From assembly GCF_027158205.1 (NCBI RefSeq), contig NZ_JAPVLU010000014.1, positions 1 to 64,000 of the forward strand: 64,000 bases of DNA, read 5' to 3'. Position numbers and translations under genes: made by a program. Positions 47,691-61,870 of the stretch are shown here, in pieces. The stretch comes from Streptomyces sp. H39-S7. Lineage in GTDB: Bacteria > Actinomycetota > Actinomycetes > Streptomycetales > Streptomycetaceae. Each line of letters starts with the position of its first letter. Positions within the stretch are counted from its first letter, which is position 1. A model generated the notes under the pieces. That model saw nothing but the letters and a program-made list of their open reading frames with translations, had not been told where the DNA came from and did not search any database.

Positions 47691-48494
47691 ATGAACCCCG
47701 ACAACGAGCACGAGTCGCTGAACGAACGGCGGCCCGAGAGGGAGACGTTCTGGTCCCTCCTCGACGGGACCGCCCGGGAACGCCTCGTGTCCGCAGGCCA
47801 CGTACACACGTACTCCGCGAGATCGCACCTGCTGAGACAGGACGAGTTCTCCGATCACGTCCTTGTCCTGCGCACCGGTTGCGTGAAGGTATACGCCGAG
47901 TCAGGGACGGGCTACCAGGTCGTGCTGGCGCTGCGCAACGGCGGTGACCTGCTCGGCGAGCAGGCCGGCCTGGACCGGCAGCCGCGCTCGGCGTCGATCT
48001 ACGCGCTGACGGACACCGAGGCACTGGTCGTCCCCGCCAGCCGGTTCGCGGCTCTCCTCTGGTCGCAACCCACGATGGGCGCAGCAGTGCAGCAGGTACT
48101 GTCACGCCGGTTGCGCGAGGCCGACCGGCACCGGGCCGCGATCGGCTCGGTGCCGGTCGAAGCGCGGCTGGCCGCCCTGGTTCTGGACCTCGGGGAACGC
48201 TACGGCAGGCGCACCACCGACGGCTCGTTGCGGATCGACCTGCCGCTGTCACAGGACGACCTGGCCGGTCTGGTAGTCAGCTCGCGCCGGACGATCAGCC
48301 GGATCCTGGAGGAGTGGCGCCGGGAGAAGCTGCTCACCACCGGGCGCCAGGCGCTGGAGTTGGCCGGGCTGCACGCGCTGCGCCACCGAGCCGAGGACCC
48401 TGGTGCGGTGCCGGGCTGGATCGCGCCGCGCGGGGAGGGCCACGCACCGGGGCGCAGCGCCGGACAGGAGCCTCACACGTTGTCCCACGAGTAA
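47691..48494 (+). CDS. Crp/Fnr-family cyclic-nucleotide-binding regulator
   Basis: 267 aa from ATG 47691. N-terminal beta-barrel sensor domain: HVHTYSARSHLLRQDEFSDH and a phosphate-binding-cassette-like GGDLLGEQAGLDRQPRSASI, where GE and RSA keep the positions that contact cAMP in CRP. The C-terminal winged helix is LSQDDLAGLVVSSRRTISRI. No Fe-S cysteine pattern is present. The pairing with a Pycsar-like effector and the presence of a nucleotide cyclase in the facing operon suggest nucleotide sensing. Its end overlaps the kinase gene end by 22 bp, tail to tail. Confidence 0.88.
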   Translation: MNPDNEHESLNERRPERETFWSLLDGTARERLVSAGHVHTYSARSHLLRQDEFSDHVLVLRTGCVKVYAESGTGYQVVLALRNGGDLLGEQAGLDRQPRSASIYALTDTEALVVPASRFAALLWSQPTMGAAVQQVLSRRLREADRHRAAIGSVPVEARLAALVLDLGERYGRRTTDGSLRIDLPLSQDDLAGLVVSSRRTISRILEEWRREKLLTTGRQALELAGLHALRHRAEDPGAVPGWIAPRGEGHAPGRSAGQEPHTLSHE

Positions 48495-50161
48495 CGGGTC
48501 AGCCCGTACCGGTCCGCGATGTCGTTCCACTCCCCGACGAACGTCTTCTTCGCCTCGGTGGCCCGGCCGCTTGCCTCGGCAGCGTCCTGGAACTCTGGCG
48601 CGTCCCCCGTGTGGTCCGGCGAGCAACCCCCCGAGTTCAGGCTCACGGCCCATCGGCGATAGGCGTCGTCGGCCTCCGCCGATGCCGACCAGGCAGTCCG
48701 CAGATCGGTGACTGCCTGATCGCCGCCGGACAGACCACCGACGTCCAGATGGTCCAGCCGGGCCAGCAGATCCCGGCGAGCAGTGGCCGCACGCGAGAAG
48801 ACGTCGGCGTCGTTCGACAGCGTGTCGCAGCGCTGCACGGACGCGACCGCGGCGCCGACTCCGCTGCGTGTGCCTGCGTTCTCCTGCAGCAACGCGTCCA
48901 CCGCGGCGGCTTGGTCACGGGCCGCGGAACCGGTGCCGTCTGCCGGGGTCTGTCCCTCGCCGCCCGATCCGCCGGTGCCGGTGGAAGCCGCCTCGCTGCC
49001 CGCGGGCGCCGAGCCGTCGCCGGAGCGCACGAGATGGGTGCCGAAGCCGATGAAGAGCAGGGCCGCGAGCACCGCTGCCACGATGGCGGCTCCCCTCGCC
49101 GGCGACATCGGACTCCGGGGCTGCTGAGGCATCGGCCGCTGACCGGTCCAGGTAGGGCCCGCGGCCTGCGGCATGTACTGCACGCGCGGTGGAGGCGATG
49201 TGCGCGGGGGAGCCGTCGCGAAGGGAGGTCTCCTTGGCACGGTCGGCGGTGCCTGCGCGGGGGCGGTCGGCGGTGACGCCGGAACCCTGCGTAGCGGCCG
49301 GTGCCGTTGCGGGTCGGCGATCGCCCGCTCCAATGCCCCGCCCCAGTCCTGCATACTGGGCCGTTCCTTGGGGTTCGCCGAGAGGCCCCACCCGGCCAGT
49401 ACAGCCAACTCGTTCGACACCTGCGCCAGTTGAGCAGTATCGGTGCCCTCCTGCTCACCGAGGAAGAGCCGGATCGCCAGCAGGGTGAACTTGTACCGGT
49501 CACCCTCCGCAGTCGCCAGCGGTTCCCCGTCCGGGACCTTCCAGCCCGGGGTCTCCGCCTGCTCCAGCACGCTGCGCCCCCGCAGTCGCATGGCGTCGCA
49601 GTCGATGAAGAAGCAAGCCGGACGCGGAGCCAGGGTGAACAGGAGATTCCTCGCCGACAGGTCCCCGACAGCCACGTCGAGTTTATGCAGTCGACCGAGC
49701 AGATCCGCCAGGTCCTTGAGCAGCAGTAGGCGCTGCCGGTCGCTGATCGTGATGCCGATCCGCTCGATGTACTGCTGATCGTTCAGCAGGAACTGAAGAT
49801 CGGCGATCCGCCGGCGCCCCGGAGCGGTGGCCAATTCGGTCGTGAAGTCGTCCGGCACCTGACGCATCAGAAATCCGCGGGACCGCCCCGCCTGATCGAC
49901 GATCGCCACGGGCCACGCGCTGCGCTCCGCCAGCCAGCGGCCCACGGCTGCGTCGAGCGACGGAATGAACTCGACCATCGCCTCCAGCGCCGCGAAGTCG
50001 GCTTCGCGAAGCGAAGTATCCGAGTACTCCTTGTAGGCGATCGGCCACTCCTTGTTGATCTTCCTTTCCTTGATCGCCCACACCTCTCCCTGGCCGCCCT
50101 TGCCGAGGTGTCGCTCCTTGACGAGCGAGTCGAGGTCGACGTGCGGAGCACGCCCGGTCAT
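48473..50161 (-). CDS. Membrane-anchored Ser/Thr kinase-like protein
   Basis: A 562-aa protein. Kinase domain (about 1-280): Gly-rich loop HLGKGGQGEVWAI, Lys44 in IAYKEYSD, catalytic-loop VAVGDLSARNLLF (HRD changed to VGD, catalytic Asp and Asn kept), and FFIDCDAMR where DFG is changed to DCD. Then a Pro-rich linker (about 285-350), one membrane helix (GAAIVAAVLAALLFIGFGTH) and a Ser/Gly then helical extracytoplasmic domain with two Cys (VQRCDTLSN, SGGCSPDH). The Asp of the DFG position is kept, so activity is possible. It overlaps the PP2C stop by 4 bp and is the last gene of the operon. Confidence 0.85.
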   Translation of the reverse strand: MTGRAPHVDLDSLVKERHLGKGGQGEVWAIKERKINKEWPIAYKEYSDTSLREADFAALEAMVEFIPSLDAAVGRWLAERSAWPVAIVDQAGRSRGFLMRQVPDDFTTELATAPGRRRIADLQFLLNDQQYIERIGITISDRQRLLLLKDLADLLGRLHKLDVAVGDLSARNLLFTLAPRPACFFIDCDAMRLRGRSVLEQAETPGWKVPDGEPLATAEGDRYKFTLLAIRLFLGEQEGTDTAQLAQVSNELAVLAGWGLSANPKERPSMQDWGGALERAIADPQRHRPLRRVPASPPTAPAQAPPTVPRRPPFATAPPRTSPPPRVQYMPQAAGPTWTGQRPMPQQPRSPMSPARGAAIVAAVLAALLFIGFGTHLVRSGDGSAPAGSEAASTGTGGSGGEGQTPADGTGSAARDQAAAVDALLQENAGTRSGVGAAVASVQRCDTLSNDADVFSRAATARRDLLARLDHLDVGGLSGGDQAVTDLRTAWSASAEADDAYRRWAVSLNSGGCSPDHTGDAPEFQDAAEASGRATEAKKTFVGEWNDIADRYGLTRYSWDNV

Positions 50162-51294
50162 CTCCGGGCCTCCTGCAGCAGGTGTCTCGGCCAGATGGCG
50201 AGCAGCGTGCGGTCGTCGTCGAAGGTCTCCCGGGAGAAGTCCAACAGGTGGGCGAGCCCGCGAGCGGGTACCGGAGTGCGCAGGTGCCGGTGGAACAGTT
50301 CCCCAACGGCACCCGTGCCGTCACCCAGCGCGTCCCCGAAACCGTCGGTGCCGACGAGGAGAACGGATGCGGGACCGAGTACCGTCCGCTGGACCGGGAG
50401 GGGCGAAGGAACCCGGGGCAGCGGCGTCACCGCCGAGGACAGCACCTCAGTTCCGTACGAGTCCTTCGTCGTCAGGAGACGCTGATAGCCGCCCCCGCTC
50501 CTGTCGAGCAACCAGGCGCCGGAGTCACCGACCTGGACGAGGCTGACCTCCGGTACCCCGGACTCGTCGATCCGCACGACACCGGTCACCAGGGTCGTCG
50601 CGTACTTGCGCTCGGCCTCTTCGCTGTAGGCCCCTTCGGGCTCACGCCCAGCCGCCGCCCGGGCGACGAGTTGCCAGGCAGCCGACCGCACCACATGGGG
50701 CCAGTCCACGGTGGGGGCCCCTGAGTCCAGTTGCTGCAGCAAATTACTGACCGCCCCCCGGCACGCCAGGGCCGAGCCGATCGAGGACTGCTCGGCCGAG
50801 GACACACCGTCCGCAACGGCGAACACCACGCTCTGGGTGGGCTCGTGCACGGAGACCGCCACGTCGTCCTCGCGTGGCCGGCCCGCGTAGCGGTGGGCGT
50901 ACCCGCGCACGGACGCCAAGCGCACCGTCACGAGATCCGTGGACCACCCGTCGTAAACGGTGTCCGGGCGGTACGACGGCGCTGCGGGCGGCCTGGGTTC
51001 GAATCGGTACCCCGGCTCCCCAACGGTGATCGCCTCCCAGTCCGCAGGCGAGTACGGCTCCGGTTGAGCCGTCGCGGGCGGCGGGGCGGGTAAGGCTGCA
51101 GCCGGCGGCCTGACGGAGGGCGGTGCTGCCGCCGGATGCGCGACGCCGGGACGAGCGCTGGGCGGACGTTCGGGCGGCGGATGAAACAGCGGCACAGGAG
51201 GCTGGTCGAAGTCCCCGCGCCACCCGTCCGATCGTACGTAGTCGTCGATCCCGGCGCCCTCGCCCGCCCGGCCGGCGGAATTCGGCCTGTCCAT
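50158..51294 (-). CDS. PP2C-family protein phosphatase
   Basis: 378 aa from ATG 51294 (GAGG 7 nt upstream, one base after the vWA stop). A Pro-rich N-terminal region (about 25-95) precedes the PP2C domain. Metal-binding motifs are visible: HRYAGRPREDDVAVSVHEP (first Asp pair), VVFAVADGVSSAEQSSIGS (DG), VSLVQVGDSGAWLL, LLVGTDGFGDAL (DG) and ETFDDDRTLLAIW (DD). It is thus likely active and would remove phosphates placed by the adjacent kinase on the vWA or NTPase proteins. Confidence 0.9.
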   Translation of the reverse strand: MDRPNSAGRAGEGAGIDDYVRSDGWRGDFDQPPVPLFHPPPERPPSARPGVAHPAAAPPSVRPPAAALPAPPPATAQPEPYSPADWEAITVGEPGYRFEPRPPAAPSYRPDTVYDGWSTDLVTVRLASVRGYAHRYAGRPREDDVAVSVHEPTQSVVFAVADGVSSAEQSSIGSALACRGAVSNLLQQLDSGAPTVDWPHVVRSAAWQLVARAAAGREPEGAYSEEAERKYATTLVTGVVRIDESGVPEVSLVQVGDSGAWLLDRSGGGYQRLLTTKDSYGTEVLSSAVTPLPRVPSPLPVQRTVLGPASVLLVGTDGFGDALGDGTGAVGELFHRHLRTPVPARGLAHLLDFSRETFDDDRTLLAIWPRHLLQEARR

Positions 51295-51295
51295 T

Positions 51296-51973
51296 TCAGA
51301 CCTCGTCAATTGCCATGTGGAAACCCTCGGGCTTCGTGACGATCAACTCGGCATTGCCGTTCGCCAAGCTGCGGCCGGACTCCACCATGCTCTGGGTGAG
51401 GGCCAGGAAGAACGAGGAGATGGCCGTGCCCAGATCGGCACCTGCCACTGCCACCAGGGCGAACTCCTGTTTCGTTGCCACCTCCAGCATCATCGCCGGA
51501 GCGGCCTGGCCGATACCGCAGGCAACGACGTTCGGCGCCGCGGGCGTCACACCCCGGTCGGTCAGTCGCCGATGCGGGGTCTTCCAGTCCTCACCGGAGT
51601 TGGGCATGCCATCGCTGAGGAAGAACACCGCCGGGCGGTGAACCTTGTACCCCTCGGACTTCAACCGGTTGATGTCGTGCGGCAGCCGGTTCAGCAGCGC
51701 GGTGAACACCGCTTCGTAACTGGTGGTGCCCCGGGTGACCAGCTCAGGCAGCTGGGTCTCCCTGCGCAGATCGGCGAGTTCCACCCGCGTCACGACGTCG
51801 TCGGAGAAGCCCAGGACCGAGAAGCGCACTTTCGCCGCGGCCATCGGTTCGCCCAGCAGGGTGTTGTGCAACGACTGAAGGCCCTGATTCAGTTCGCCAA
51901 GGTGTTTGGTCATCGACCCGGACTCGTCGGCTAGTACGTAGACAGGCAGTAGAGAGCCACGGTTATCGGACAC
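51296..51973 (-). CDS. von Willebrand factor A (TerY-like) protein
   Basis: 225 aa from GTG 51973 (AAGGA upstream), a single vWA domain. The MIDAS metal site is complete: VYVLADESGSM (DxSxS), TRGTTSYEAVF (Thr) and FFLSDGMPNSGEDW (Asp). Closest in style to TerY-type vWA proteins found beside kinases and PP2C phosphatases in stress/conflict modules. It lies 61 bp after the SPFH-vWA gene and 1 bp before PP2C. Confidence 0.9.
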   Translation of the reverse strand: MSDNRGSLLPVYVLADESGSMTKHLGELNQGLQSLHNTLLGEPMAAAKVRFSVLGFSDDVVTRVELADLRRETQLPELVTRGTTSYEAVFTALLNRLPHDINRLKSEGYKVHRPAVFFLSDGMPNSGEDWKTPHRRLTDRGVTPAAPNVVACGIGQAAPAMMLEVATKQEFALVAVAGADLGTAISSFFLALTQSMVESGRSLANGNAELIVTKPEGFHMAIDEV

Positions 51974-52034
51974 TGCGGTGTTCCTTCTTCTGTGGGTGGC
52001 TGTCGGGCGGTGCAATTGCGGGAACTGTCATGGC

Positions 52035-53738
52035 TCACCCCACCGTCGCGGCGGGCAGCAACCCCTTCGGACACTCGGCGATCAGGTCCGGGCGCCCGGC
52101 GAGCACGCCACGGCCCAGATGCAGCAAGGTGTTCTGCAGCAAAGCGGAGAACAGGGCCGTCTGGTCCGCCGCGGGAACCGCGGGGTCCGCGACGAAGGCC
52201 AGCTCAGGACTGGAGGCGATCCGCAGCACACCGCGGGATTCTGCTGTGCCCAGACCGCAGGCGACGATGGTGGGGGCGTAACGGTGTGCCGCGAGGCTCT
52301 GCCGGGCGTCGGGCCATTTCACGTTGTCCTGCGGAGGGGCGGTGGTCACCAGGAACACCACGGGACGGTGGACCCGGCCACCGCCGTGCTTGAGACGGTC
52401 AACATCTCCGGGCAGCAGGTCGAGCAGCCCGTCGAAGGCCGCGGCGAGGTGCAGGCCGCCGCCGGCCGAGAGATGGGGCACATCCGTGCCCCAGTCGACC
52501 CGTGTCAACGGCATCCTCATGTCCGGGCGTTCGGCGAAGCCGATCACGGACAGCCGCAGGCCTGCCGCCACGTCGGGGCTCTGGGTCAGTGCGGTGTGGA
52601 GCGAACGCAGCGCGTCGTTGAAGCCCGCGGTGAACGGCGCGGCCGACTGCGAGGCGTCGAGCACCACGTAGACCGGCATCGTCGCCCCGGCGCCCGCCGG
52701 GGCCGCACCGGCCGGCGCCCCTGGTGCCGGGCCCGCGACCGCGGCCGCGCCGCCCCACATCACCGGGGCGGTGGCGGCCGGCCCCACGGCGGGCGGTGGC
52801 GGCCCCCCGACCTGCGGGCCGTACATCGGGAGCGCGCCTACTGCCGGACCACCGTAGGACGACATCAGGTCCGGAGCCCGGAAGAAGTCCTTCTCGACCA
52901 TGAACTTGAACATCTCGTCGCTGCGCTGGGTGCCCAGCTCCCAGCGCATGGCCTGAGTGCTCTCCCACTCGAGACGCAGTTGCAGCGCACGCTCCGTGTC
53001 CTCGGGATGCTTGACGAGATGCTGCCGGATGAGCCCCTCGATGTCCCAGCTCATCCCGGCAAGGGCAGCACCACGGCGCTTCTCGCGATCCAGTTCTCCG
53101 GTGAGCCTGAGGTTCTCGACGGCCTCGTCCGACGTGACCTCCGCCACCCGCTTCTCGTGTTGCCGCTGCCCCAGAGTCCCGTCCCGGCGCGCCCGGGTCA
53201 GCGCCTTGATGTACTGCCTCGCGTCGTCGTCCGGCTCGATATGGACCCGGCACAGGTAGATCGTCAGACCTTCAGGGAGCCGGACCGGCTGCTGGAACGC
53301 CCTGTTCACCTCCTCCTCCGCCCGGTCGGCCTCATCGATCGCGTAGCGGCGCGCGGTCGTGCGCAGAAGGTGGATGACGTGTCCGTACACAATGGGCAGC
53401 GCGTCGGGAACACTGCGGCGCACCACCTGCTCCGGGTCCTCGACCCGGAAGCCGACATCCAGCGTGGCCTCGAAACGATGCGCCTGGTCGCTGCACGGCA
53501 GCGGGGTGCTGCGCACTGCCGCCTGCCGTCGATGGTCGCCGAGGTCGACCGCCAGCCGGGTACCGCTCCTGCCGAGCACCTTCGCCCAGAAATTCGGGGT
53601 CGCACTCGTGCCGACGGTGAGCTTGCCGTCGGAGGCGATATGAACGATGGCCACGTTACGGTGCCGGTCCCACCAATCCTTGTGCTGATCGCTCGGCATC
53701 GAGTCCACGCTGGTGATCAGGGGCAGCGTCGCAGCCAT
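52035..53738 (-). CDS. SPFH/band-7-like plus vWA fusion protein
   Basis: A 567-aa protein. The N-terminal 230 residues resemble an SPFH/band-7 domain: AHRFEATLDVGFRVEDPEQV, then LLRTTARRYAIDEADRAEEE, VRLPEGLTIYLCRVHIEPDD, then long charged helices (about 190-300). A Gly/Pro/Ala linker (about 305-365) leads to a C-terminal vWA with complete DxSxS (YVVLDASQSAAPF) but with LVTTAPPQDN where the third MIDAS Asp is expected. SPFH proteins form membrane-associated rings; fusion to vWA is unusual. No transmembrane helix is seen. It starts 1 bp after the NTPase stop. Confidence 0.75.
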   Translation of the reverse strand: MAATLPLITSVDSMPSDQHKDWWDRHRNVAIVHIASDGKLTVGTSATPNFWAKVLGRSGTRLAVDLGDHRRQAAVRSTPLPCSDQAHRFEATLDVGFRVEDPEQVVRRSVPDALPIVYGHVIHLLRTTARRYAIDEADRAEEEVNRAFQQPVRLPEGLTIYLCRVHIEPDDDARQYIKALTRARRDGTLGQRQHEKRVAEVTSDEAVENLRLTGELDREKRRGAALAGMSWDIEGLIRQHLVKHPEDTERALQLRLEWESTQAMRWELGTQRSDEMFKFMVEKDFFRAPDLMSSYGGPAVGALPMYGPQVGGPPPPAVGPAATAPVMWGGAAAVAGPAPGAPAGAAPAGAGATMPVYVVLDASQSAAPFTAGFNDALRSLHTALTQSPDVAAGLRLSVIGFAERPDMRMPLTRVDWGTDVPHLSAGGGLHLAAAFDGLLDLLPGDVDRLKHGGGRVHRPVVFLVTTAPPQDNVKWPDARQSLAAHRYAPTIVACGLGTAESRGVLRIASSPELAFVADPAVPAADQTALFSALLQNTLLHLGRGVLAGRPDLIAECPKGLLPAATVG

Positions 53739-53739
53739 G

Positions 53740-55992
53740 TCATTCCTTCTCTCGGTCGAGCACTCTGTTCACGGCCCACGCAGTGAGCGGCAGCGGGGCG
53801 AGTTCGTCACGATCGGTCCATTCGGCGGCGTACCGGCGGATGATGCGGCCCGAGCGGCCATCACCGTGCACTAGGGCTCCCAGCATGTTCAGAAAGGTCT
53901 CCCGCAGCCGGGAGTCCGTCTCGGCGAGCGCCGCCCAGTTCCGCAGCGTCTGTTGTGCCTGCCGATGGGAGATGGGCTGGCCCAGCGCCTCACGCCACAG
54001 CAGCACCAGCGGATCGCGTACCTCGGCCCGGACTTCGCTCAGGAAGAGCAGCGCCGGCCATCCGTCATAGCCCTCGAATTCCGGTTGCGTGCCGTCGATG
54101 ACGAGGCCGGTCGCCATGATCAGAAAGGCCAGCAGGCAAGTGGGGCGGGTCTGCGGCGGCGCCAGGCCGGTCCGCAGCGCACCCAGCACCAAAGGTGCCC
54201 GTGTGTAGTCGTCCGCCAGGAGGTCGGTGTAAGCGTTGCCGATGGCCACCGCGACCTTGATGCTGTCCACAGCCGACAGCCGGGCCAGCCGCGTGATGTT
54301 CTGCTCCGCGTCGCCGGAGGCCGACAGCAGGCCGTACACCCGTGCGGCCGTGGCCTGGCCGAGCGGACGGCTCCGATCGGCGAACCATTCGGCGACCAGC
54401 ACGTCGATCTGTGGGCGTAGTTCCGGATCGCCGGCCCCGATCGACAGCGCGTAGGCGACCGCCTCACGAAACCGCTCGTCCTGATGGAACGCCCAACCGG
54501 CCAGCACGCGCCGGTTCAGGTACGGAAACGCCGTCGGCAGCAGTCCGCCGAGAGCCACCGCCGCGTACACCCGCACCTCGTCGGAGCGGTCCGTGACCAA
54601 CTCGCCCAGCCAGCCGAGCAGCAGCTCCTGAATCGGGTACTCCGACCAGGCGTGCGCGAGCACCTGCCGCGGATAGTCCGGATCCTGGTACTCCAAACAG
54701 CATCCCGTGCCGGGCGCGTCGACCCGGCCGGCGCGCAGCCGGGCCAGCAGCTTCCGCATCGGCAGAGCCAGGGGGTCGTGTGCTGGCAATGGCTGGTAAC
54801 GGACCGCCGGATCCTGCGATCCGGTGTGAACGCGAACTGCGTCCAGCCGACGTTCCAGCATGCGCGCGGCGTCGGTGATGTCCTCCTGCGGCAGGCCGTT
54901 GAGCACGGCCAGCGCCAGTGAGAAGCAGCGGGTGAAGGTCTCCGTCAGACTGCCGGCCCAGATCGCGAAGGTCTCGACGCCCTTACGAGCCATCCGGTCA
55001 CGGATCCGGTGCAGGTCAGGCTCGCCGGACTGATACTCGTCATGCAGCGCGGTGGCGAGATCCGCGGCGCTGCCGCAGGTCGCGTTGGCGTCCAGGTGCT
55101 CGGCGAGCAACGCCTCCACCTCGGCGTCGGCGAGCATCCGCTCCGCCTCCCGCACGCCGAACCGCCAGCGAAGGTAGCGCCTGACGATGCCGCGGAGCAC
55201 CGGTGGCCGGGTCAGGTCCACCACTCCGGTCAGCAGCTCGCTGTCCGCCACGTCGGTATCGGCGATGGTGACGACCATGACGGCGTTCGCGTCCAGAAGG
55301 GCGGTCTGCAACCGGTCGAATATCTCGCCACGCAGATTCGCCGCGTCCGCCGGCCGGTCCAGCAGGAAGCCGGCACCGGCTTCGATGCCCATACCGGAAC
55401 CGTCGGCTGCCGAGGTGTCCAGGCGGTCGGCCAGCGACGCGAAGTCCACCCCGCTGTCGAGGTGGTAGACCGGTCCGCGGCATGGCAAGAGGAGCCGTAC
55501 GGCGGTGGCGGCTTTGCCCAGGCCGTCGGCACCGCGCAGGATGGCCATGCCCTGCTTGGCCAGCGCCACGCGCGCCTCGTCGTACCCCGGTGCCTCCTCG
55601 TACGCGTTCTGAATTCGTTCACGCAGCACCGGTGACAACGGCCGCAGTCGTTCGCGCGCCCCACCGAGCAGGAAAACGTACTTGTCGCGGCCGACAGCAT
55701 CGCCGTCCACGTTGGCGAAGGCGTTGCGCAGGTGGCCGTGCCGTTGGGATCCCGCTCCGAAGCGGCCGGTGGCGGCGTCTTCCCCGCCCGTGCCGATCCG
55801 GTCGTCGTCATGCGCAGCAGGGTCGGGGCCGTGACCGGAGCCCGACGCCGCTTCCGGGGTACCCCCTCCCGGCACGCCATCGGCCCCGCCCGCAGGCGGG
55901 GCCGTGGCCGGTGCCGGTTCGGAAGCTCCCCCAACCGCTCCCGAACCGGCAGCTCCTCCCCCCGCGCCCCCCAGCGGTATGGGCTGATTCAC
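53740..55992 (-). CDS. P-loop NTPase-like protein with HEAT-like repeats and glycine-rich N-terminal motif
   Basis: A 750-aa protein, translation-coupled to the cyclase (4-bp overlap). A low-complexity Gly/Ala/Pro N-terminus (1-90) ends in NVDGDAVGRDKYV (94-106). A P-loop follows (AILRGADGLGKAATAVRLL, about 150-168): the Lys is kept but the following Ser/Thr is Ala. The Walker B equivalent (AVMVVTIADTD) is weak, so it may be an inactive or atypical STAND/AAA-type ATPase. The C-terminal half (about 420-740) is helical with repeated units such as DEVRVYAAVALGGLLP and ERFREAVAYALSIGAGD, like HEAT repeats. It probably acts as a sensor/scaffold. No known family name fits securely. Confidence 0.75.
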   Translation of the reverse strand: MNQPIPLGGAGGGAAGSGAVGGASEPAPATAPPAGGADGVPGGGTPEAASGSGHGPDPAAHDDDRIGTGGEDAATGRFGAGSQRHGHLRNAFANVDGDAVGRDKYVFLLGGARERLRPLSPVLRERIQNAYEEAPGYDEARVALAKQGMAILRGADGLGKAATAVRLLLPCRGPVYHLDSGVDFASLADRLDTSAADGSGMGIEAGAGFLLDRPADAANLRGEIFDRLQTALLDANAVMVVTIADTDVADSELLTGVVDLTRPPVLRGIVRRYLRWRFGVREAERMLADAEVEALLAEHLDANATCGSAADLATALHDEYQSGEPDLHRIRDRMARKGVETFAIWAGSLTETFTRCFSLALAVLNGLPQEDITDAARMLERRLDAVRVHTGSQDPAVRYQPLPAHDPLALPMRKLLARLRAGRVDAPGTGCCLEYQDPDYPRQVLAHAWSEYPIQELLLGWLGELVTDRSDEVRVYAAVALGGLLPTAFPYLNRRVLAGWAFHQDERFREAVAYALSIGAGDPELRPQIDVLVAEWFADRSRPLGQATAARVYGLLSASGDAEQNITRLARLSAVDSIKVAVAIGNAYTDLLADDYTRAPLVLGALRTGLAPPQTRPTCLLAFLIMATGLVIDGTQPEFEGYDGWPALLFLSEVRAEVRDPLVLLWREALGQPISHRQAQQTLRNWAALAETDSRLRETFLNMLGALVHGDGRSGRIIRRYAAEWTDRDELAPLPLTAWAVNRVLDREKE

Positions 55993-56789
55993 CAGCGGAC
56001 CGGTCCTTGCTGGTGAACGACCTTGTCCCGGCCGACGACGTCACCGTGGACGACACCAACCTGGATGGCGCTCCCGCCGACCGCGCCGTCCTGCGCGCGG
56101 GCGCCATCTCCGTTATCCGGCTGGGCGCCTCCAGAGGCCGCGAAAGGCGACAGCGCAGCCGGCTTCGGCTCTGCGGCAGCTTTCGGCCGCGGCGGCAGTC
56201 CCGGCGGCGCGCTGAACCCCGGCACAGTGATCCAACTCTCGACCACCTCACCGTGTTTGGTGGTGAACTGCAGCGGGAGATACGCGGCGGGGTCGATCCC
56301 CCGATGGGCGTGCCGAACGACACCGTCGTACACCTGCCCCGAGACGATGAACGCCAGATGAGCGGATTCGGCAGCTTCCAGCACGTCACGCAGCGGCTGC
56401 GCATCCACCAGGCGGCACGCCATGTTCACCGCGTCCCCGGACCACCCGTGCCGGTCCTTCGTGACCAGCCCCTGGTGGAGGGCCAGTCGCATGCGCAGGG
56501 AGTGTGCTGAGCTGAAGACCTGAGCCTTCTCACGCAGTCCGTCATCGAGCGCACGCACCAACGGCCCCGCCAGCCGTACCGGCGAGATCGTGGGCGGCAC
56601 CAACATCAGAATGCCGTCCCCGCGATCCTCGGCAACGACCACCCCACGGTCGATGCCCACCTGCGCGAAGGCGCTCTCCACCACCTTGTACATCGCGTCG
56701 CGCATGGACCGCTGAATGAGGTCGGACCTCGTGCTGAAACTCTCCAAGTCCAAGACCAGGATCCAGTAGTGCAGCGCTTCGGATGTCAT
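55989..56789 (-). CDS. Class III nucleotide cyclase with C-terminal GD-x-VGRDK motif
   Basis: 266 aa from ATG 56789 (GAGAGGGG 5 nt upstream). The cyclase domain (1-180) keeps both metal Asps (D14 in LVLDLESFS, D58 in EDRGDGIL) and the transition-state Asn and Arg (N122, R126 in GDAVNMACRLVD). The base-specifying positions are E54 and about G115, unlike the K/D pair of adenylate cyclases, so the product may not be cAMP; cGMP or a pyrimidine is possible. A Pro/Ala-rich linker leads to QVGVVHGDVVGRDKVV (about 244-258), matching a motif in the next protein. It heads the six-gene operon. Confidence 0.85.
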   Translation of the reverse strand: MTSEALHYWILVLDLESFSTRSDLIQRSMRDAMYKVVESAFAQVGIDRGVVVAEDRGDGILMLVPPTISPVRLAGPLVRALDDGLREKAQVFSSAHSLRMRLALHQGLVTKDRHGWSGDAVNMACRLVDAQPLRDVLEAAESAHLAFIVSGQVYDGVVRHAHRGIDPAAYLPLQFTTKHGEVVESWITVPGFSAPPGLPPRPKAAAEPKPAALSPFAASGGAQPDNGDGARAQDGAVGGSAIQVGVVHGDVVGRDKVVHQQGPVRW

Positions 56790-56954: not shown

Positions 56955-57632
56955 TCAGCGACGCAGTTGATCTGGCGGAGCTTGGGGATCGGTGAAGACG
57001 GCCAGATACTGGAATTCGCCCCGAAGCCCATCTTGGCGCGAGTATGGCTGCCAGTTGAGGCGGTACCTGCCGCGCAGCGTCCGGGTGTTCGGTTCGTAGT
57101 CGCCGCCGCCCCAGAGCAGGTTCCCCGTGAGCGTGCGCCCTTCGTGGATGCGGAAGTCCTGGTCCCGAGTGGACTTGCGGCCCTGCTTCGGCGGTGTCCA
57201 CAACCCGGCTTCGTTGGTGACGAGGAGCGCCAGACCGTTCTGGTCAGGTCGATTACTGAAGCGCTCCAGCCTGGCGATGTCGGAGACGAAGCCGAGCCGG
57301 GCCAAGTCAGCAGCGGAGTGCGCCTTCAGCGCGTACTGCTCAGGGACGTGCCCAGCCGTACCGATCCGTTCCGCGGTGCGGTACTTGAACTCGATGGCCG
57401 TGCGGGTCGAAGGACCGATGCACATCAGGTCGAGGTACTCGGCGGGCGCCGTAGTCGCTTGGTGCTGACGCACCTCCAGCCTGGATCGGATCGAGGGGGC
57501 CAGTTCCCACAATGCCCGCGCGAAGCTGTGTTGAAGATCCGCCTCGGAGTGGAATACCGGCCACTCCAGCCGGAGCCGGGCCATGACGTCCTGAAGAGGC
57601 ACCTCTCCGGCGATAAGTGGTTCGGGCGTCAT
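56955..57632 (-). CDS. PD-(D/E)XK-like nuclease-fold protein
   Basis: A 225-aa protein from ATG 57632. EYLDLMCIG followed by STRTAIEFKYRTAE gives the D...E-x-K arrangement of restriction-endonuclease-like folds, with an upstream Glu in FHSEADLQHSFARALWEL. The C-terminal part is not recognised. It may be a stand-alone nuclease or the inactive partner of one. It lies between the nuclease-helicase and the cyclase operon on the same strand, 165 bp from the cyclase start. Confidence 0.65.
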   Translation of the reverse strand: MTPEPLIAGEVPLQDVMARLRLEWPVFHSEADLQHSFARALWELAPSIRSRLEVRQHQATTAPAEYLDLMCIGPSTRTAIEFKYRTAERIGTAGHVPEQYALKAHSAADLARLGFVSDIARLERFSNRPDQNGLALLVTNEAGLWTPPKQGRKSTRDQDFRIHEGRTLTGNLLWGGGDYEPNTRTLRGRYRLNWQPYSRQDGLRGEFQYLAVFTDPQAPPDQLRR

Positions 57633-57872: not shown

Positions 57873-59723
57873 TCAGACGGAAACGGCGATCCGCTGACCC
57901 TCGACCAACTCGCGCAGCCTGTCCTGGCTCTCCGGGTCCGTCGAGTACACCACCGTGCCGACCATGCCGCGCGTCAGCAGGACCTTGTAGGTATTGCGAA
58001 TCAGGCGGTCCACGTCGGCGTCCGGCGTGGACTTCTTGAAGACCGGGTCCTTGGACTTCGTACGGTCGGTGACCCAGCGGTCGCCACGCCAGACCAGGTC
58101 CGGGCCGATGATGACTCCGGACCAGTCGTACTCGAACCCCTGCGCGGTGTAGACGCAGCCGATCTGTCCGAAGCCGGCCGGGTCGGTCGCCCACAAGGCG
58201 GACGGAGGTGCTCCGGAGATCGCACGATCGCCGCGCAGGTTCCACGGGCGCGTCCAGTCGCCGATCACGACATCCGCCGGAAGCGGGTCTCCGGGCCTGG
58301 GCTCCGGTGACCAGGGCCAGCAATAGCCGGCGGACATCCGCGCACTCGCGTGGTCCTCGGCGCGGCGAGCCTCGAGGAACGTCTCCATCTCCCGCGGGCT
58401 TCGCGCAACCTGGAGGTGCATACGGTCGTCGGGTTCCCACGAGACCGGGCCTCCCGGCTCCAGGCCGAGGAACCGTATTACCCATCTCAGATAGGCGTCG
58501 CTGCCGCCGCAACGGAACTGGCTGTCCAGCGACACAACACGGCAGTCGATTCCCTTGCGGGTCGCAGCCGCCTCGATTTCAGCCACCGTCCCCATCTCGC
58601 CGGGGCGCACGACCTGGTGCTCGTCGAGGAGGAAGACAGGAACGCGGGCAACGTCGATGAGTTCGTCGATCTGCGGCCTGCCCGTACGGTGGGCTGCCGA
58701 GGTGTAGCGGTTGGCGGAGGTTTCCCGGATGCGGTGGGCTTCGTCGCAGATCACGACGTCGAGGGTGTTCTTCTCGGCCGTCATGAAGCTGTTGAAGTAC
58801 TTGAAGAGATCCTGCACTTCACGCTTGCGGGCGCCGGCCACCTTGCGCATGGTCTTGGTGAACGACTGGGATCCGGTGGCGTGCAAAGCCGGGACGCCTT
58901 GGCGATACAGCTCACCGAGAACCGACAACGCGATGACGCTCTTGCCGGTCCCAGGACCACCCGTGACGACCACGACCGTCTTGTGGTCGGACTGTTTGGC
59001 GTCGCGGACGGCATTGAGCACCGTCCGGTAGGCGACCTGCTGCTGGTCCAGCAGAACGAACTGTTCGCGCTCGCGCACCTCCTGTGCCGCTAGCGCCATC
59101 AGCTGCTGGGACGGCACGGTCTTGCCGGCCAGGAGCTCGTCGGCTGCCCCAGCCCCCGGATGCTTGTCGGACAGCTTGGCGCGGAGGTAGTCGAGGAATG
59201 CTCCCCTGCCTTCGGCGGTGAACAATTGCCCCCGGTCGTCGAGTTCCACCTCCCGCAGACCATTCACGCCGTACTCGGTGGCGTTGTGGAGGTACGCAAC
59301 GCCACCGACCCGCTTCGGATGCCCGGCAAGGGCGCCATTGAAGTTGACCAAGTACTCGCAGTACCGACGTACCTGCTCGATCGGGTTGAGGACCGGATGC
59401 GCGTAGGCATCTACAAGGCAGAGCTCGGGGTCGTCGTCGTGCGGGCTGGCCTGGCTCCACTGCTTCAGCTCGACAACGACATAGGACGGCTCGCCGCTGA
59501 CCGGATGCACGCCGGCGAGCACGGCGTCGGCTCGCTTGCTGTTCAGCGGCAATGCGTACTCCAGCATCACCTCCACGTCACCGAGACCGGCGTCGTTCAG
59601 CGCCGCGGCCAGCAGCGGAATGCTGCGCTCCCACGAGCGGACCTCGGAGGATCCGGGCCGGTACCCGTGCATGTGGACGAACTGCTCGGTGAGGCGGAGC
59701 GGAAGCGAGCCGTCAAGGGCCAT
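57873..59723 (-). CDS. Nuclease-helicase (DUF2075, Schlafen-like/SF1 ATPase)
   Basis: 616 aa from ATG 59723; the frame is open to 59822. The N-terminal ~150 residues contain RADAVLAG and YVVVELKQW, a PD-(D/E)XK core. The ATPase follows: Walker A VVTGGPGTGKSVIALS, Walker B/DEAD-like VVICDEAHRIRE, motif III-like VFLLDEHQVVRPGE, motif IV-VI regions LDSQFRCGGSDAYLRW, YTAQGFEYDW and LLTRGMVGTVV. DUF2075 proteins with a nuclease domain occur in anti-phage contexts. Substrate and trigger are unknown. It is 240 bp upstream of the small nuclease on the same strand. Confidence 0.85.
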   Translation of the reverse strand: MALDGSLPLRLTEQFVHMHGYRPGSSEVRSWERSIPLLAAALNDAGLGDVEVMLEYALPLNSKRADAVLAGVHPVSGEPSYVVVELKQWSQASPHDDDPELCLVDAYAHPVLNPIEQVRRYCEYLVNFNGALAGHPKRVGGVAYLHNATEYGVNGLREVELDDRGQLFTAEGRGAFLDYLRAKLSDKHPGAGAADELLAGKTVPSQQLMALAAQEVREREQFVLLDQQQVAYRTVLNAVRDAKQSDHKTVVVVTGGPGTGKSVIALSVLGELYRQGVPALHATGSQSFTKTMRKVAGARKREVQDLFKYFNSFMTAEKNTLDVVICDEAHRIRETSANRYTSAAHRTGRPQIDELIDVARVPVFLLDEHQVVRPGEMGTVAEIEAAATRKGIDCRVVSLDSQFRCGGSDAYLRWVIRFLGLEPGGPVSWEPDDRMHLQVARSPREMETFLEARRAEDHASARMSAGYCWPWSPEPRPGDPLPADVVIGDWTRPWNLRGDRAISGAPPSALWATDPAGFGQIGCVYTAQGFEYDWSGVIIGPDLVWRGDRWVTDRTKSKDPVFKKSTPDADVDRLIRNTYKVLLTRGMVGTVVYSTDPESQDRLRELVEGQRIAVSV

Positions 59724-60348
59724 GACGGCAACCGTCCTGGCTGACGCGCGGAGCAGCAAGGAGTTCCCCCAGGCAGCACGAAGTGACTCGTGCGGGTGGG
59801 GGCATGTCCTTCGAAACTCCACTGAGGTGGAGCGGAAGCCCGTCGGGCCGCGATGACTGGATCAAGGGTACTCAGACGTCAGATGGGCCGGAGGATCTTT
59901 CGCTCACACGGCGCGCGAAAGCCTCGTCATCAGGACGACCAGAGCCCAGATCTGCTGGGCAGTATCACTGAACCCTTTCAATGTGGTCACCGATCGAGTG
60001 ACGGCGGTGAGGGGGACCAGAACGCAACACACGAGGCTCCCGAACCGTTGAGGGAGGTGTTCGACGTCTTAACCCAGCGGCGTAGAAGCCTCGTTGGACT
60101 TCTACACCAGCGCGCTCGACCTGCCGCACGCTGTGGTCGAGTGGGTCACGATGCTCATCGTCACGCGCGAGAGTGACCTGCGGTGCAAGTTCCCGCCGCA
60201 CGGGCCTGCTGAAGACCCTGCGCGAGCGGGCCCCCGCCTGGGAGGACTGGGGAACTGCCCCTCGCGGTCCAGACTCGGTGTCGCCGTGGGGCAAGCGGCT
60301 GGAAGCCGCCGGAGTAGTGCGCCCGTAGTCGAAGCGGCGGGCGGCGAC
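59724..60348. other. 625-bp region without intact genes between helicase and integrase remnant
   Basis: No ORF with convincing codon use. It contains a 7-bp stem hairpin (60082-60088 with 60099-60105) and a mixture of frames that read short pieces resembling integrase DNA but with stops, consistent with decayed mobile-element sequence. Confidence 0.5.
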
Positions 60349-60534
60349 ATGAAGGACATCCAGGAGACACTGGGCCACTCGTCCCTCACCGTCAGCGCGG
60401 ACGTCTACACCAGCCTGCTGCCGGAATTCGACCGGGCCATCGCCGAGCGCGCGGCGCTCCTCGTACCCCGCGCCAGCAGGGCGAACGGGCCGAACGGTGC
60501 TCCCCCGTCCGAGGCACTCGCAGAACCGGTTGGG

Positions 60535-60561
60535 CCGTCCGCTCACGCATCGCTCACGCAA
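60535..60561. repeat. 27-bp direct repeat, left copy
   Basis: Identical to 60796-60822. The repeated sequence contains CTCACGCATCGCTCACGC. The two copies, 261 bp apart, bracket the tRNA-like fragment. Confidence 0.85.
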
Positions 60562-60642
60562 GCGGCCCCGGACGCAGAGTCCGAGGCCGTTGATGACGCT
60601 CCTAGACGACCAAAACTGCAGGTCATCCAGGGTGGGAATGAG

Positions 60643-60685
60643 AGCCCCCTGTCGGATTCGAACCGACGACCTTCGCTTTACAAGC
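60643..60685 (-). other. tRNA 3'-end fragment (tRNA-Thr-like), probable attachment site
   Basis: On the minus strand this reads as the anticodon loop and 3' half of a tRNA: TTGTAAAG, then the T-arm GTCGGTTCGAATCCGAC and the acceptor strand AGGGGGCT. The TGT anticodon suggests Thr. No 5' half (acceptor, D-arm) is found to the right. Such truncated tRNA ends are typical attachment sites of integrative elements, here next to an integrase remnant. Confidence 0.7.
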
Positions 60686-60795
60686 GCCGCTGGGATCGTG
60701 ATCGTGAGTGACGAACCGCGCCGCACGGTGCTGTTCCTGCTGGTCAGCGCCGCGCGACATGTTTCACTGTCCGTGATGGGTTGGCCCTTTCCAGC

Positions 60796-60822
60796 CCGTC
60801 CGCTCACGCATCGCTCACGCAA
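60796..60822. repeat. 27-bp direct repeat, right copy
   Basis: Identical to 60535-60561. It lies at the edge where RHS-like fragments begin. Confidence 0.85.
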
Positions 60823-61130
60823 ATCTCCCACCAAGTGCCGGCCGGGTGGTGGTTCTGGTGTCGGTCATTCACGGTGATCTGACGGCCGCACAGGTCGTAG
60901 CCATAGGTCCAGATGTTCTTTGCCGTGACGTCGGTGCGCGGCGCCGGCTTGCCGGCCGGAGTGTGGGTGTAACTGGCGACATCGGCACGACTTGCGTGCC
61001 CCGTGACCCGGGGCTGCGGTAGTGCCACAGCTGGCTGGCCAAGCCCCGCGCATCAGTGAAGGTGGTAGCGGGAGCGCAACCGCTGGGGTGTCACATCGGT
61101 CGCGTCCACGCCGGGGACGGCCCATAGTGG
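60804..61130 (-). pseudogene. Frameshifted RHS-repeat fragment
   Basis: Read on the minus strand, RHS-type repeat motifs appear in different frames: TDVTPQRLRSRYHL and FTDARGLASQLWHYRSPG in others, then ASYTHTPAGKPAPRTDVTAK and NIWTYGYDLCGRQITVND after a frameshift. YD..GR is the RHS repeat hallmark. The piece has no start or complete repeat unit, so it is an orphan remnant of an RHS/polymorphic-toxin gene lying downstream of the intact locus. Confidence 0.7.
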
Positions 61131-61261
61131 TGCGCCACTGATCAGTGCCCTTCGCGCTGAAGATCCAGGCGGCGACTTGCCCTGCCAGCCAAAGACGGTG
61201 CTGATCTCGGAATTGATCTCACCATCCGAAAACACTAGCCAACCATGGCACGCAATGTTCA

Positions 61262-61870
61262 TTACAGCCGGGGTCTGATACTCAACCACGCCTCAACCTC
61301 GGCATGAAGTTCCTCATCCACGAGTGAATTCTCCACCCATTCGAGCGCGGATAGAATTCGCTCAACATCTTGCAGCTTGCTGATATGCGGGTCAGGTTCC
61401 TCCCAGAGCGGCGCCCCTACGCCCACTGGGGCATAGAAGCCATCATCGGCACGTTGATGGGCAGCGGCACGCTCTTCTGCATACTCCACTACCTCCTCGC
61501 GGGATATCGGCATAATACTGAGCGCCCATTTGGCTGCCCCTTCTGGAGTAATCAGCTCAGGCAACCCGGCGATCTTCGGACTAGATTTCAGCGCTAGGGC
61601 CGAAAGACGAAGAAACCAATAGGCCGCCAAGGCGGGCGAAACCTCTCCTCGCTCGCTGGCCACTCCAATCAATTGGCCACCTAGTCCGAAAATATCTCGC
61701 CTCCGGCCAGTTGGGATATCACGAAATTGATTCCCACCAGGTTCGATCTCCTCAAATATTGCCCCCCACCACTGCACAGGTGCTGACGCAGGAAACCGAG
61801 CATCGAGCCAGGAAGCAAGCTGTTCGTGCGAGAGTTGCTGAATCTGTCGAAAGTCTTCGCGAATTCCCAT
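61262..61870 (-). CDS. Candidate immunity protein for the RHS toxin
   Basis: 202 aa; ATG 61870 overlaps the RHS stop by one base (TGATG), with a TTG one codon earlier as alternative. The protein is acidic-to-neutral and helical, with no signal or membrane segment (IREDFRQIQQLSHEQLASWL, VSPALAAYWFLRLSALALKS, DVERILSALEWVENSLVDEE). No family is recognised. Its position directly after a polymorphic toxin and its GC content, visibly lower than the flanking core genes, make it the cognate immunity candidate. Confidence 0.75.
   Translation of the reverse strand: MGIREDFRQIQQLSHEQLASWLDARFPASAPVQWWGAIFEEIEPGGNQFRDIPTGRRRDIFGLGGQLIGVASERGEVSPALAAYWFLRLSALALKSSPKIAGLPELITPEGAAKWALSIMPISREEVVEYAEERAAAHQRADDGFYAPVGVGAPLWEEPDPHISKLQDVERILSALEWVENSLVDEELHAEVEAWLSIRPRL

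Follow-up and report, generated by a model that had tools for sequence, protein, structure and literature searches.

Bacterial amyloid-signalling (BASS) motifs are known from NLR/Bell gene pairs (Dyrka et al. 2020, via PMC7889193, PMC8086366 and PMC12261475), and according to one of these accounts Bell domains are the usual effectors of such NLR proteins, whereas TIR and CHAT domains are less frequent (PMC7889193). Here we describe a two-gene unit from Streptomyces sp. H39-S7, lying in a 64,000-nucleotide stretch of contig NZ_JAPVLU010000014.1 (positions 1 to 64,000, hereafter the window), in which a class III nucleotide cyclase is followed by an NLR-like NTPase and the two proteins carry related short motifs. 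As in the BASS systems described there, the genes are adjacent, the motif stands at the C-terminus of the effector and the N-terminus of the NLR or NLR-like protein and matches within the pair, several unlike motif families occur, the hosts are filamentous bacteria, and TIR domains are among the effectors. Measured against those descriptions, the unit differs in having a class III cyclase rather than a Bell domain as its main effector, in the cyclic-nucleotide receivers of its sister loci and the vWA/PP2C/kinase-like module found here, and in an NTPase with sub-threshold Pfam matches only. A cyclase/NTPase pair with matched terminal motifs had no prior description in open-literature titles and abstract openings, a search that did not cover the founding BASS paper.

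A shared motif in the cyclase and the NTPase

An earlier note on this DNA had proposed that the two proteins share a GD-x-VGRDK motif, in the cyclase tail and in the N-terminal region of the NTPase, and both copies were confirmed on the minus strand. The C-terminal end of the 266-residue cyclase (55989..56789, minus strand) reads ...SAIQVGVVHGDVVGRDKVVHQQGPVRW* and holds the motif IQVGVVHGDVVGRDKVVHQQG at 56004..56066 (core GDVVGRDK at 56022-56045; motif-profile E 1e-5). The N-terminal region of the 750-residue NTPase (53740..55992, minus strand) contains ...RNAFANVDGDAVGRDKYVFLLGG, with the motif RNAFANVDGDAVGRDKYVFLLG at 55663..55728 (core GDAVGRDK at 55681-55704; motif-profile E 7e-8). A six-frame translation of all 64 kb of the window contains VGRDK at these two places and nowhere else. 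The note had also placed a Gly/Pro/Ala-rich linker between each motif and its main domain; this held for the cyclase and failed for the NTPase, in which a Gly/Pro/Ala-rich stretch is followed by a short helix (residues 71-96) and then by the motif, which directly abuts the AAA domain. The best ungapped 11-residue match between the two copies has 8 of 11 identities. Because 1 of 200 double shuffles also reaches 8, the window pair taken alone is suggestive, not decisive.

A 22-column profile of the motif was judged by where else it matched in 61 genomes (the window's own and relatives). At E<=0.01 there were 20 matches, 19 in effector/NTPase pairs and one in an apparently decayed cyclase (locus L187); none fell in an unrelated protein, so the motif is not found equally in unrelated single proteins, a distribution that the note had named as fatal to its proposal. 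The absence of further matches is the one informative part of this result, because some of these pairs went into building the profile. In L187 (genome G008) the cyclase frame runs into another frame bearing a GDVVGGDK tail, an apparent frameshifted remnant, and this genome gave no NTPase match, which fits loss of the system.

The two motifs co-vary within pairs

From 118 NTPase matches we obtained 96 adjacent effector/NTPase pairs by rules blind to the motif, after dropping 8 duplicates, 7 matches with no upstream gene in the available sequence, 2 in which the start of the core was lost and 5 with a gap of over 400 bases; among these last is L041, a genuine TIR pair in which the gene caller placed the NTPase start late. 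Two false effectors were retained in the 96, namely L045 (a spurious upstream call, the cyclase lying one gene further) and L133 (a neighbour that is methyltransferase-like by eye). The last 60 effector residues were scored against the 60 residues before the NTPase core, and one representative was taken per cluster at 35% NTPase identity, giving 28 clusters. The mean cognate score of the 28 representatives was 56.7, compared with 27.0 (standard deviation 7.3) for non-cognate combinations, a difference reached in 0 of 100000 permutations; with this comparison the match, only suggestive in the window pair, becomes compelling. The cognate NTPase was the best match for 19 of the 28 effectors, and for 35 of 69 when clustering was at 60%. 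There was no signal in four controls, three of which compared the effector tail with other sequence (the C-terminus of the NTPase, its P-loop window and the next gene) and the fourth the cyclase body with the NTPase N-terminal window; between 4962 and 13367 of 20000 permutations attained the observed value. A fifth control, with the effector linker window, gave a weak signal (647 of 20000). Similarity on the effector side followed similarity on the NTPase side with NTPase identity controlled (partial Mantel r 0.225, 0 of 2000 permutations; 0.62 uncontrolled). Seven hand-listed genomes with two systems allowed 14 comparisons of cognate with cross scores; the cognate score was the higher in 13, of which one (L045) depends on the spurious upstream call. 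The motif is thus present in orthologous pairs and co-varies within them, as the earlier note had suggested should be examined. This co-variation, together with the modelled architecture described below, supports the note's central idea that a short motif, present in both, connects an NLR-like protein with its effector.

The motifs themselves are diverse. Of the 96 pairs, 28 have a simple GD-x-V-type pattern on both sides, 4 on the effector side alone, 7 on the NTPase side alone and 57 on neither. Many of these 57 carry other matched, mutually unlike motifs (for example L046, L049, L145, L149, L151, L158 and L175): the divergent matched pairs include GPTSFGGHAAGRDV/GPVSFGGHAAGRDV in L046, GKGANANVSGRDQTINQ/GKGGNANVSGGDQTINQ in L151, DGAQSAFGNTV on both sides in L175 and IGGASHRA...GRDQ on both sides in L145. 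Codon agreement at matched residues was 0.581 against 0.495 expected from pooled usage, and was clearly above expectation in L149, L151 and L175 among the 12 loci listed. As the excess is small, recent copying is mostly not the cause, and gene conversion was rejected as the main one, though some loci exceed expectation.

Structure of the effector and the NTPase

The AlphaFold2 model of the cyclase has a mean confidence (pLDDT) of 85, with a disordered linker and C-terminal motif (residues 226-261) under 50. Its best Foldseek matches in the PDB were the class III cyclases Cya2, CyaC and OaPAC (best E 8e-9); model and Foldseek together make the window effector a class III cyclase and neither a Bell, a TIR nor a CHAT protein. 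In an alignment of 32 cyclase sequences D14, D58 and N122 are invariant and R126 is conserved in at least 90%; we take these to be the metal-binding and transition-state residues of the class III scheme. The window cyclase had no Pfam match and no PADLOC or NCBIfam match at E<=0.001, and those of L039, L043, L046 and L050 had no PADLOC match either, the coverage of such sequences by the PADLOC models being unchecked.

The GTG start of the NTPase overlaps the cyclase stop (GTGA). The protein models as an AAA domain (about 112-338) followed by HEAT-like repeats (about 339-750), NLR-like in architecture, at a mean pLDDT of 82, with the motif region 98-114 under 50. Pfam gave HEAT_2 (2.6e-5) and nSTAND3 (0.012), both below the curated cut-off, and no PADLOC or NCBIfam match was found at E<=0.001; a profile of the NTPase gave weak helical-repeat matches only against PDB sequences. 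The top Foldseek matches in the PDB include NLRP7, Avs4 and NOD2. A second structural comparison returned AAA and HEAT-repeat proteins and no NLR among the 50 matches listed, which we do not count as evidence against the assignment.

Effectors are exchanged, and receiver genes follow the effector type

The effectors of the 96 pairs comprise 84 cyclases, assigned with a profile built from 9 of them, 8 TIR proteins and 4 others. All eight TIR effectors (L044, L080, L163, L170, L176, L177, L179 and L180) pass Pfam TIR_2; they fall within 4 of the 28 NTPase clusters, and six of the pairs score 50 or more, the exceptions being L170 (16) and L179 (36). The ninth, in L041, lies outside the 96 through the gap rule; this TIR protein carries GDVVGRDK and its NTPase GDAVGRDK. 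Two of the four others have a BTAD domain (L155 and L167; Pfam 6e-20 and 1e-16) and weaker tag matches (32 and 41), and the remaining two are the false effectors L045 and L133. In Dactylosporangium sucinum (L080:4852-9004) a cyclase and a TIR protein stand in tandem before one NTPase with related motifs (cyclase tail VNHGNVVQARDIHGGVVMGDR, TIR tail VNHGRAVLARDIYGDVILGDR, NTPase ARNIYGDHVAGHK), apparently two effectors on one receptor. Separately, L144:11472-12095 (minus strand) encodes, in effector position, a protein with a hydrophobic helix and a helical domain (tail NVFNEKVQISGDW, NTPase LALFNDTVRFGGGF); it was considered as a Bell protein and dropped as evidence, its likeness to the published description being by eye only, with no Pfam match and no alignment to L155.

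In 35 of the 84 cyclase loci, spread over 19 of the 28 NTPase clusters, a profile search placed a Crp-type gene directly before the cyclase gene and in the same orientation. Four of the encoded proteins were run against Pfam, and all four contain cNMP_binding and HTH_Crp domains. Such genes occupy 32 of the 40 loci in which no PP2C and kinase pair was found, compared with 3 of the 44 with that pair. PycTM, the Pycsar membrane effector, lies directly upstream of the cyclase in two of the 84 (L039, 4e-14; L043, 2e-10). The eight TIR loci had neither a Crp-type gene nor PycTM upstream, and the association of receiver with effector type gave a Fisher p of 0.02 overall and 1e-4 within loci without PP2C/kinase, related loci not being independent. 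The receiver gene therefore goes with the enzyme type, and this gene order argues that the cyclase would be active and its product read. Six of the TIR loci (L044, L170, L176, L177, L179 and L180) have, in place of Crp, a related upstream gene of about 340-445 residues, with an HTH-like N-terminus by eye in L044 and no Pfam match for the part called in L180.

A model of motif-mediated recruitment and its alternatives

These sequence comparisons, which span many soil actinobacteria, suggest that the tags may be the plug and socket by which the receptor switches the enzyme on. We consider it reasonably probable that the motif serves both proteins as a homotypic recruitment tag of the BASS type, through which an oligomerised NLR-like NTPase would activate the cyclase by proximity. 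The NTPase would sense a trigger, for which its HEAT-like repeats, the vWA/PP2C/kinase-like module or both are the probable route. Ligand-driven oligomerisation would then cluster its N-terminal motifs, and these would capture the corresponding motif on the disordered effector tail or act as a template for it. A cross-beta (amyloid-like) stack is the likely form of this pairing. The cyclase domains would in this way be crowded into active dimers, and the resulting cyclic nucleotide would be read by a Crp-type regulator or a Pycsar membrane effector at those loci that have such a gene next to the cyclase, and at sister loci the same tag logic would recruit TIR or BTAD-type effectors. Class III cyclases build their active sites where the two subunits of a dimer meet, and TIR domains work as oligomers; a single proximity mechanism would therefore suit either kind of effector. 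The vWA/PP2C/kinase-like module probably supplies regulatory input, and the company that these domains keep suggests a possible role in defence.

Several observations weigh against this model. At the level of the motifs, 17 of the 96 cognate pairs, two of them the false effectors L045 and L133, score under 35 and thus near the non-cognate level; several of the higher-scoring alignments extend into the Gly/Ala-rich linker; the L050 effector fits the NTPase of the other system in its genome better (39) than its own (32); and a scan for concerted motif replacement between close relatives gave 0 cases at the thresholds used. In the NTPase, FtsH, karyopherins and CAND1 appear beside NLRs among the Foldseek matches, and TM-scores normalised to query length are low (0.13-0.27 among the 50 matches listed), so that the NLR label rests on the combination of AAA domain and repeats; moreover, the Walker A lysine of the window protein is followed by Ala instead of Ser/Thr. 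Finally, the gene directly upstream of the window cyclase encodes a 225-residue protein and not a Crp-type regulator or PycTM.

Among the alternatives, the one that survives best keeps the homotypic pairing of the motifs and removes the amyloid: a short beta-hairpin or strand exchange would yield a soluble, stoichiometric complex of NTPase and effector. Co-variation requires pairing, not fibrils, the GDK motif class is short (about 12-22 residues), and in neither monomer does AlphaFold2 fold the motif or place it with confidence, all of which would suit such a complex. However, the placement at the effector C-terminus and the NTPase N-terminus recalls amyloid signalling motifs as described in PMC7889193 and PMC8086366, as do the Gly/Asn/Gln/Val-rich make-up (judged by eye) and the many unlike matched families, and we regard a soluble complex as unlikely, though deserving serious consideration.

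A common third partner bound by both motifs, such as a vWA protein, the kinase/phosphatase or a nucleic acid, could likewise drive co-variation, and the pair is indeed embedded with vWA/PP2C/kinase-like genes in the window's clade, all four accessory genes occurring together at 37 of 110 distinct NTPase loci (some contigs end early). Yet no PP2C and kinase pair was found in 40 of the 84 cyclase loci, some of which lie on contigs that end early, and these include the strongly matched pairs L046, L151 and L175; nor does the effector tail match the N-terminus of the next gene. We consider this explanation improbable.

We give still less credence to an ancestral motif that was duplicated between the two genes and simply inherited without functional pairing. 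Close orthologues do have one motif class in common, and the side-to-side similarity is strong before relatedness is controlled, falling from r 0.62 to 0.22 thereafter. Independent drift, however, would not make cognate partners more alike across clusters drawn at 35% identity; as cognate scores exceed non-cognate scores between such clusters, mere drift since an old duplication does not account for the match, and the small codon excess (0.581 versus 0.495) speaks mostly against recent copying. A chance or low-complexity match, to which the 8 of 11 residues and 1 in 200 shuffles of the window pair and the inflation of scores by Gly-rich linkers might point, we view as already refuted by the permutation and window controls and by the absence of any unrelated motif-profile match at E<=0.01 in the 61 genomes.

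Returning to recruitment by a matched tag, our reading of the unit is homotypic signalling in the style of BASS whose output has been redirected to making a cyclic nucleotide, and which in the window's clade is accompanied by a vWA/PP2C/kinase-like module. More broadly, and tentatively, such loci may represent undescribed, widespread actinobacterial inflammasome-like signalosomes, in which an NLR-like NTPase starts second-messenger synthesis by prion-like templating and unlike, co-evolving motif pairs form an insulated wiring code that exchanges cyclase, TIR and transcription-factor effectors behind one receptor design. Described bacterial NLR signalling of the amyloid type mostly drives putative membrane-targeting Bell effectors, whereas here the same logic appears to feed cyclic-nucleotide synthesis, with a Crp-type or Pycsar receiver gene next to the cyclase at sister loci, and this would be one way of turning such cyclases on. 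The numerous matched pairs lend themselves as a data set from which the specificity code of signalling motifs might be learned, and a unit of two genes is compact enough to be reconstructed and tested in a laboratory strain.

Relation to other described systems

By analogy we regard the system as BASS-like in its presumed working, not as a proven member of BASS1-10. The core of RHIM is I/V-Q-I/V-G, and we take the IQVG tetrad in the window cyclase tail to resemble it, a likeness that would also bear on BASS3 and the fungal PP motif. The tetrad is kept in the two nearest relatives (L031 and L032), whereas other orthologues read FSVG, FSIG, MQIT or FHIG there; as most orthologues read otherwise, IQVG is not a conserved RHIM core. 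It is also absent from the window's NTPase-side motif, and RHIM membership was rejected on both grounds.

The cyclase shares the class III fold with Pycsar, and PycTM stands beside the cyclase in L039 and L043; unlike in Pycsar, the cyclase here is tied to an NLR-like NTPase, and PycTM was not found among the 8 window proteins scanned. With its row of vWA, PP2C and kinase-like genes the locus recalls the TerY-P triad described in PMC11090510, from which it departs in its weak kinase assignment, the lack of a visible zinc ribbon, an extra vWA protein and the presence of an NLR-like NTPase/effector pair in the operon. A kinase/PP2C/vWA theme resembling this part of the window is mentioned in PMC7159879. 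The iSTAND/VMAP ternary systems, as described in PMC7159879 and, for iSTAND2, PMC8195603, likewise combine a vWA protein, an NTPase and swappable cyclase or TIR effectors in multicellular bacteria, but their adaptor is a folded effector-associated domain (EAD) where here it is a short motif. Assignment to iSTAND/VMAP was rejected, as a scan limited to 8 window proteins in the neighbourhood of the NTPase turned up no MoxR.

Genomic context and distribution

Four genes follow the NTPase on the minus strand. They encode a long protein of 567 residues with a C-terminal vWA domain (52035..53738; VWA_2 E 0.025, below cut-off), relatives of which stand after the NTPase in the window's clade; a stand-alone vWA protein, TerY-like by analogy (51296..52015; VWA E 4e-6); a PP2C-type protein phosphatase (50158..51309; PP2C_2 E 2e-21); and a protein-kinase-like protein with a probable membrane helix, both features being assigned by eye (48473..50161). 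This last had no Pfam match and weak matches to MkoA (2e-6, PADLOC) and LanKC (7e-4, NCBIfam, far below cut-off), and relatives of its gene adjoin PP2C. Neither window vWA protein had a PADLOC or NCBIfam match at E<=0.001. Relatives of the four genes were counted at 66 (long vWA), 53 (stand-alone vWA), 53 (PP2C) and 52 (kinase-like) of the 110 NTPase loci, with some contigs ending early. The unit is consequently wider than the earlier note described, taking in two vWA proteins, the PP2C and kinase-like genes, the effector swaps and the cyclic-nucleotide receivers of sister loci.

NTPase homologues were present in 25 of the 61 genomes of the window and its relatives (E<=1e-5), in 58 of 394 genomes sampled over the class (E<=1e-8) and in 6 of 296 over the phylum (E<=1e-10), the window's genome being included in each count. 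Forty named loci from one pattern-limited scan belong mostly to Streptomyces and other mycelial actinomycetes. A plasmid search gave one weak NTPase match (7e-6), to a Nonomuraea record of 11.9 Mb without annotated genes at that place, and a tRNA scan of the window found none.

Upstream of the cyclase lie the gene for the 225-residue protein (56955-57632, minus strand; no Pfam match) and, beside it, one for a Schlafen-group-3-type helicase protein (57873-59822, minus strand; Pfam 2e-94; PADLOC PDC-S41 3e-21). By eye, both proteins contain an E-x-K-like stretch; in sister loci neither gene was labelled as belonging to the conserved operon. Beyond them, a frame at 60094-60711 (plus strand) has a tyrosine-recombinase-like C-terminus, ETLGHSSLTVSADVYTS, by eye, and G+C falls to 0.62 in 60001-64000, a possible mobile-element remnant adjoining the helicase genes. 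Just upstream of the closest orthologous cyclase, L031:6432-7298 (plus strand) is a gene for an Imm49 immunity protein (Pfam 2e-62). In L132 and L134, and likewise in L131, very large same-strand genes (about 760-860 and 1140-1205 residues) lie downstream of the NTPase and vWA genes.

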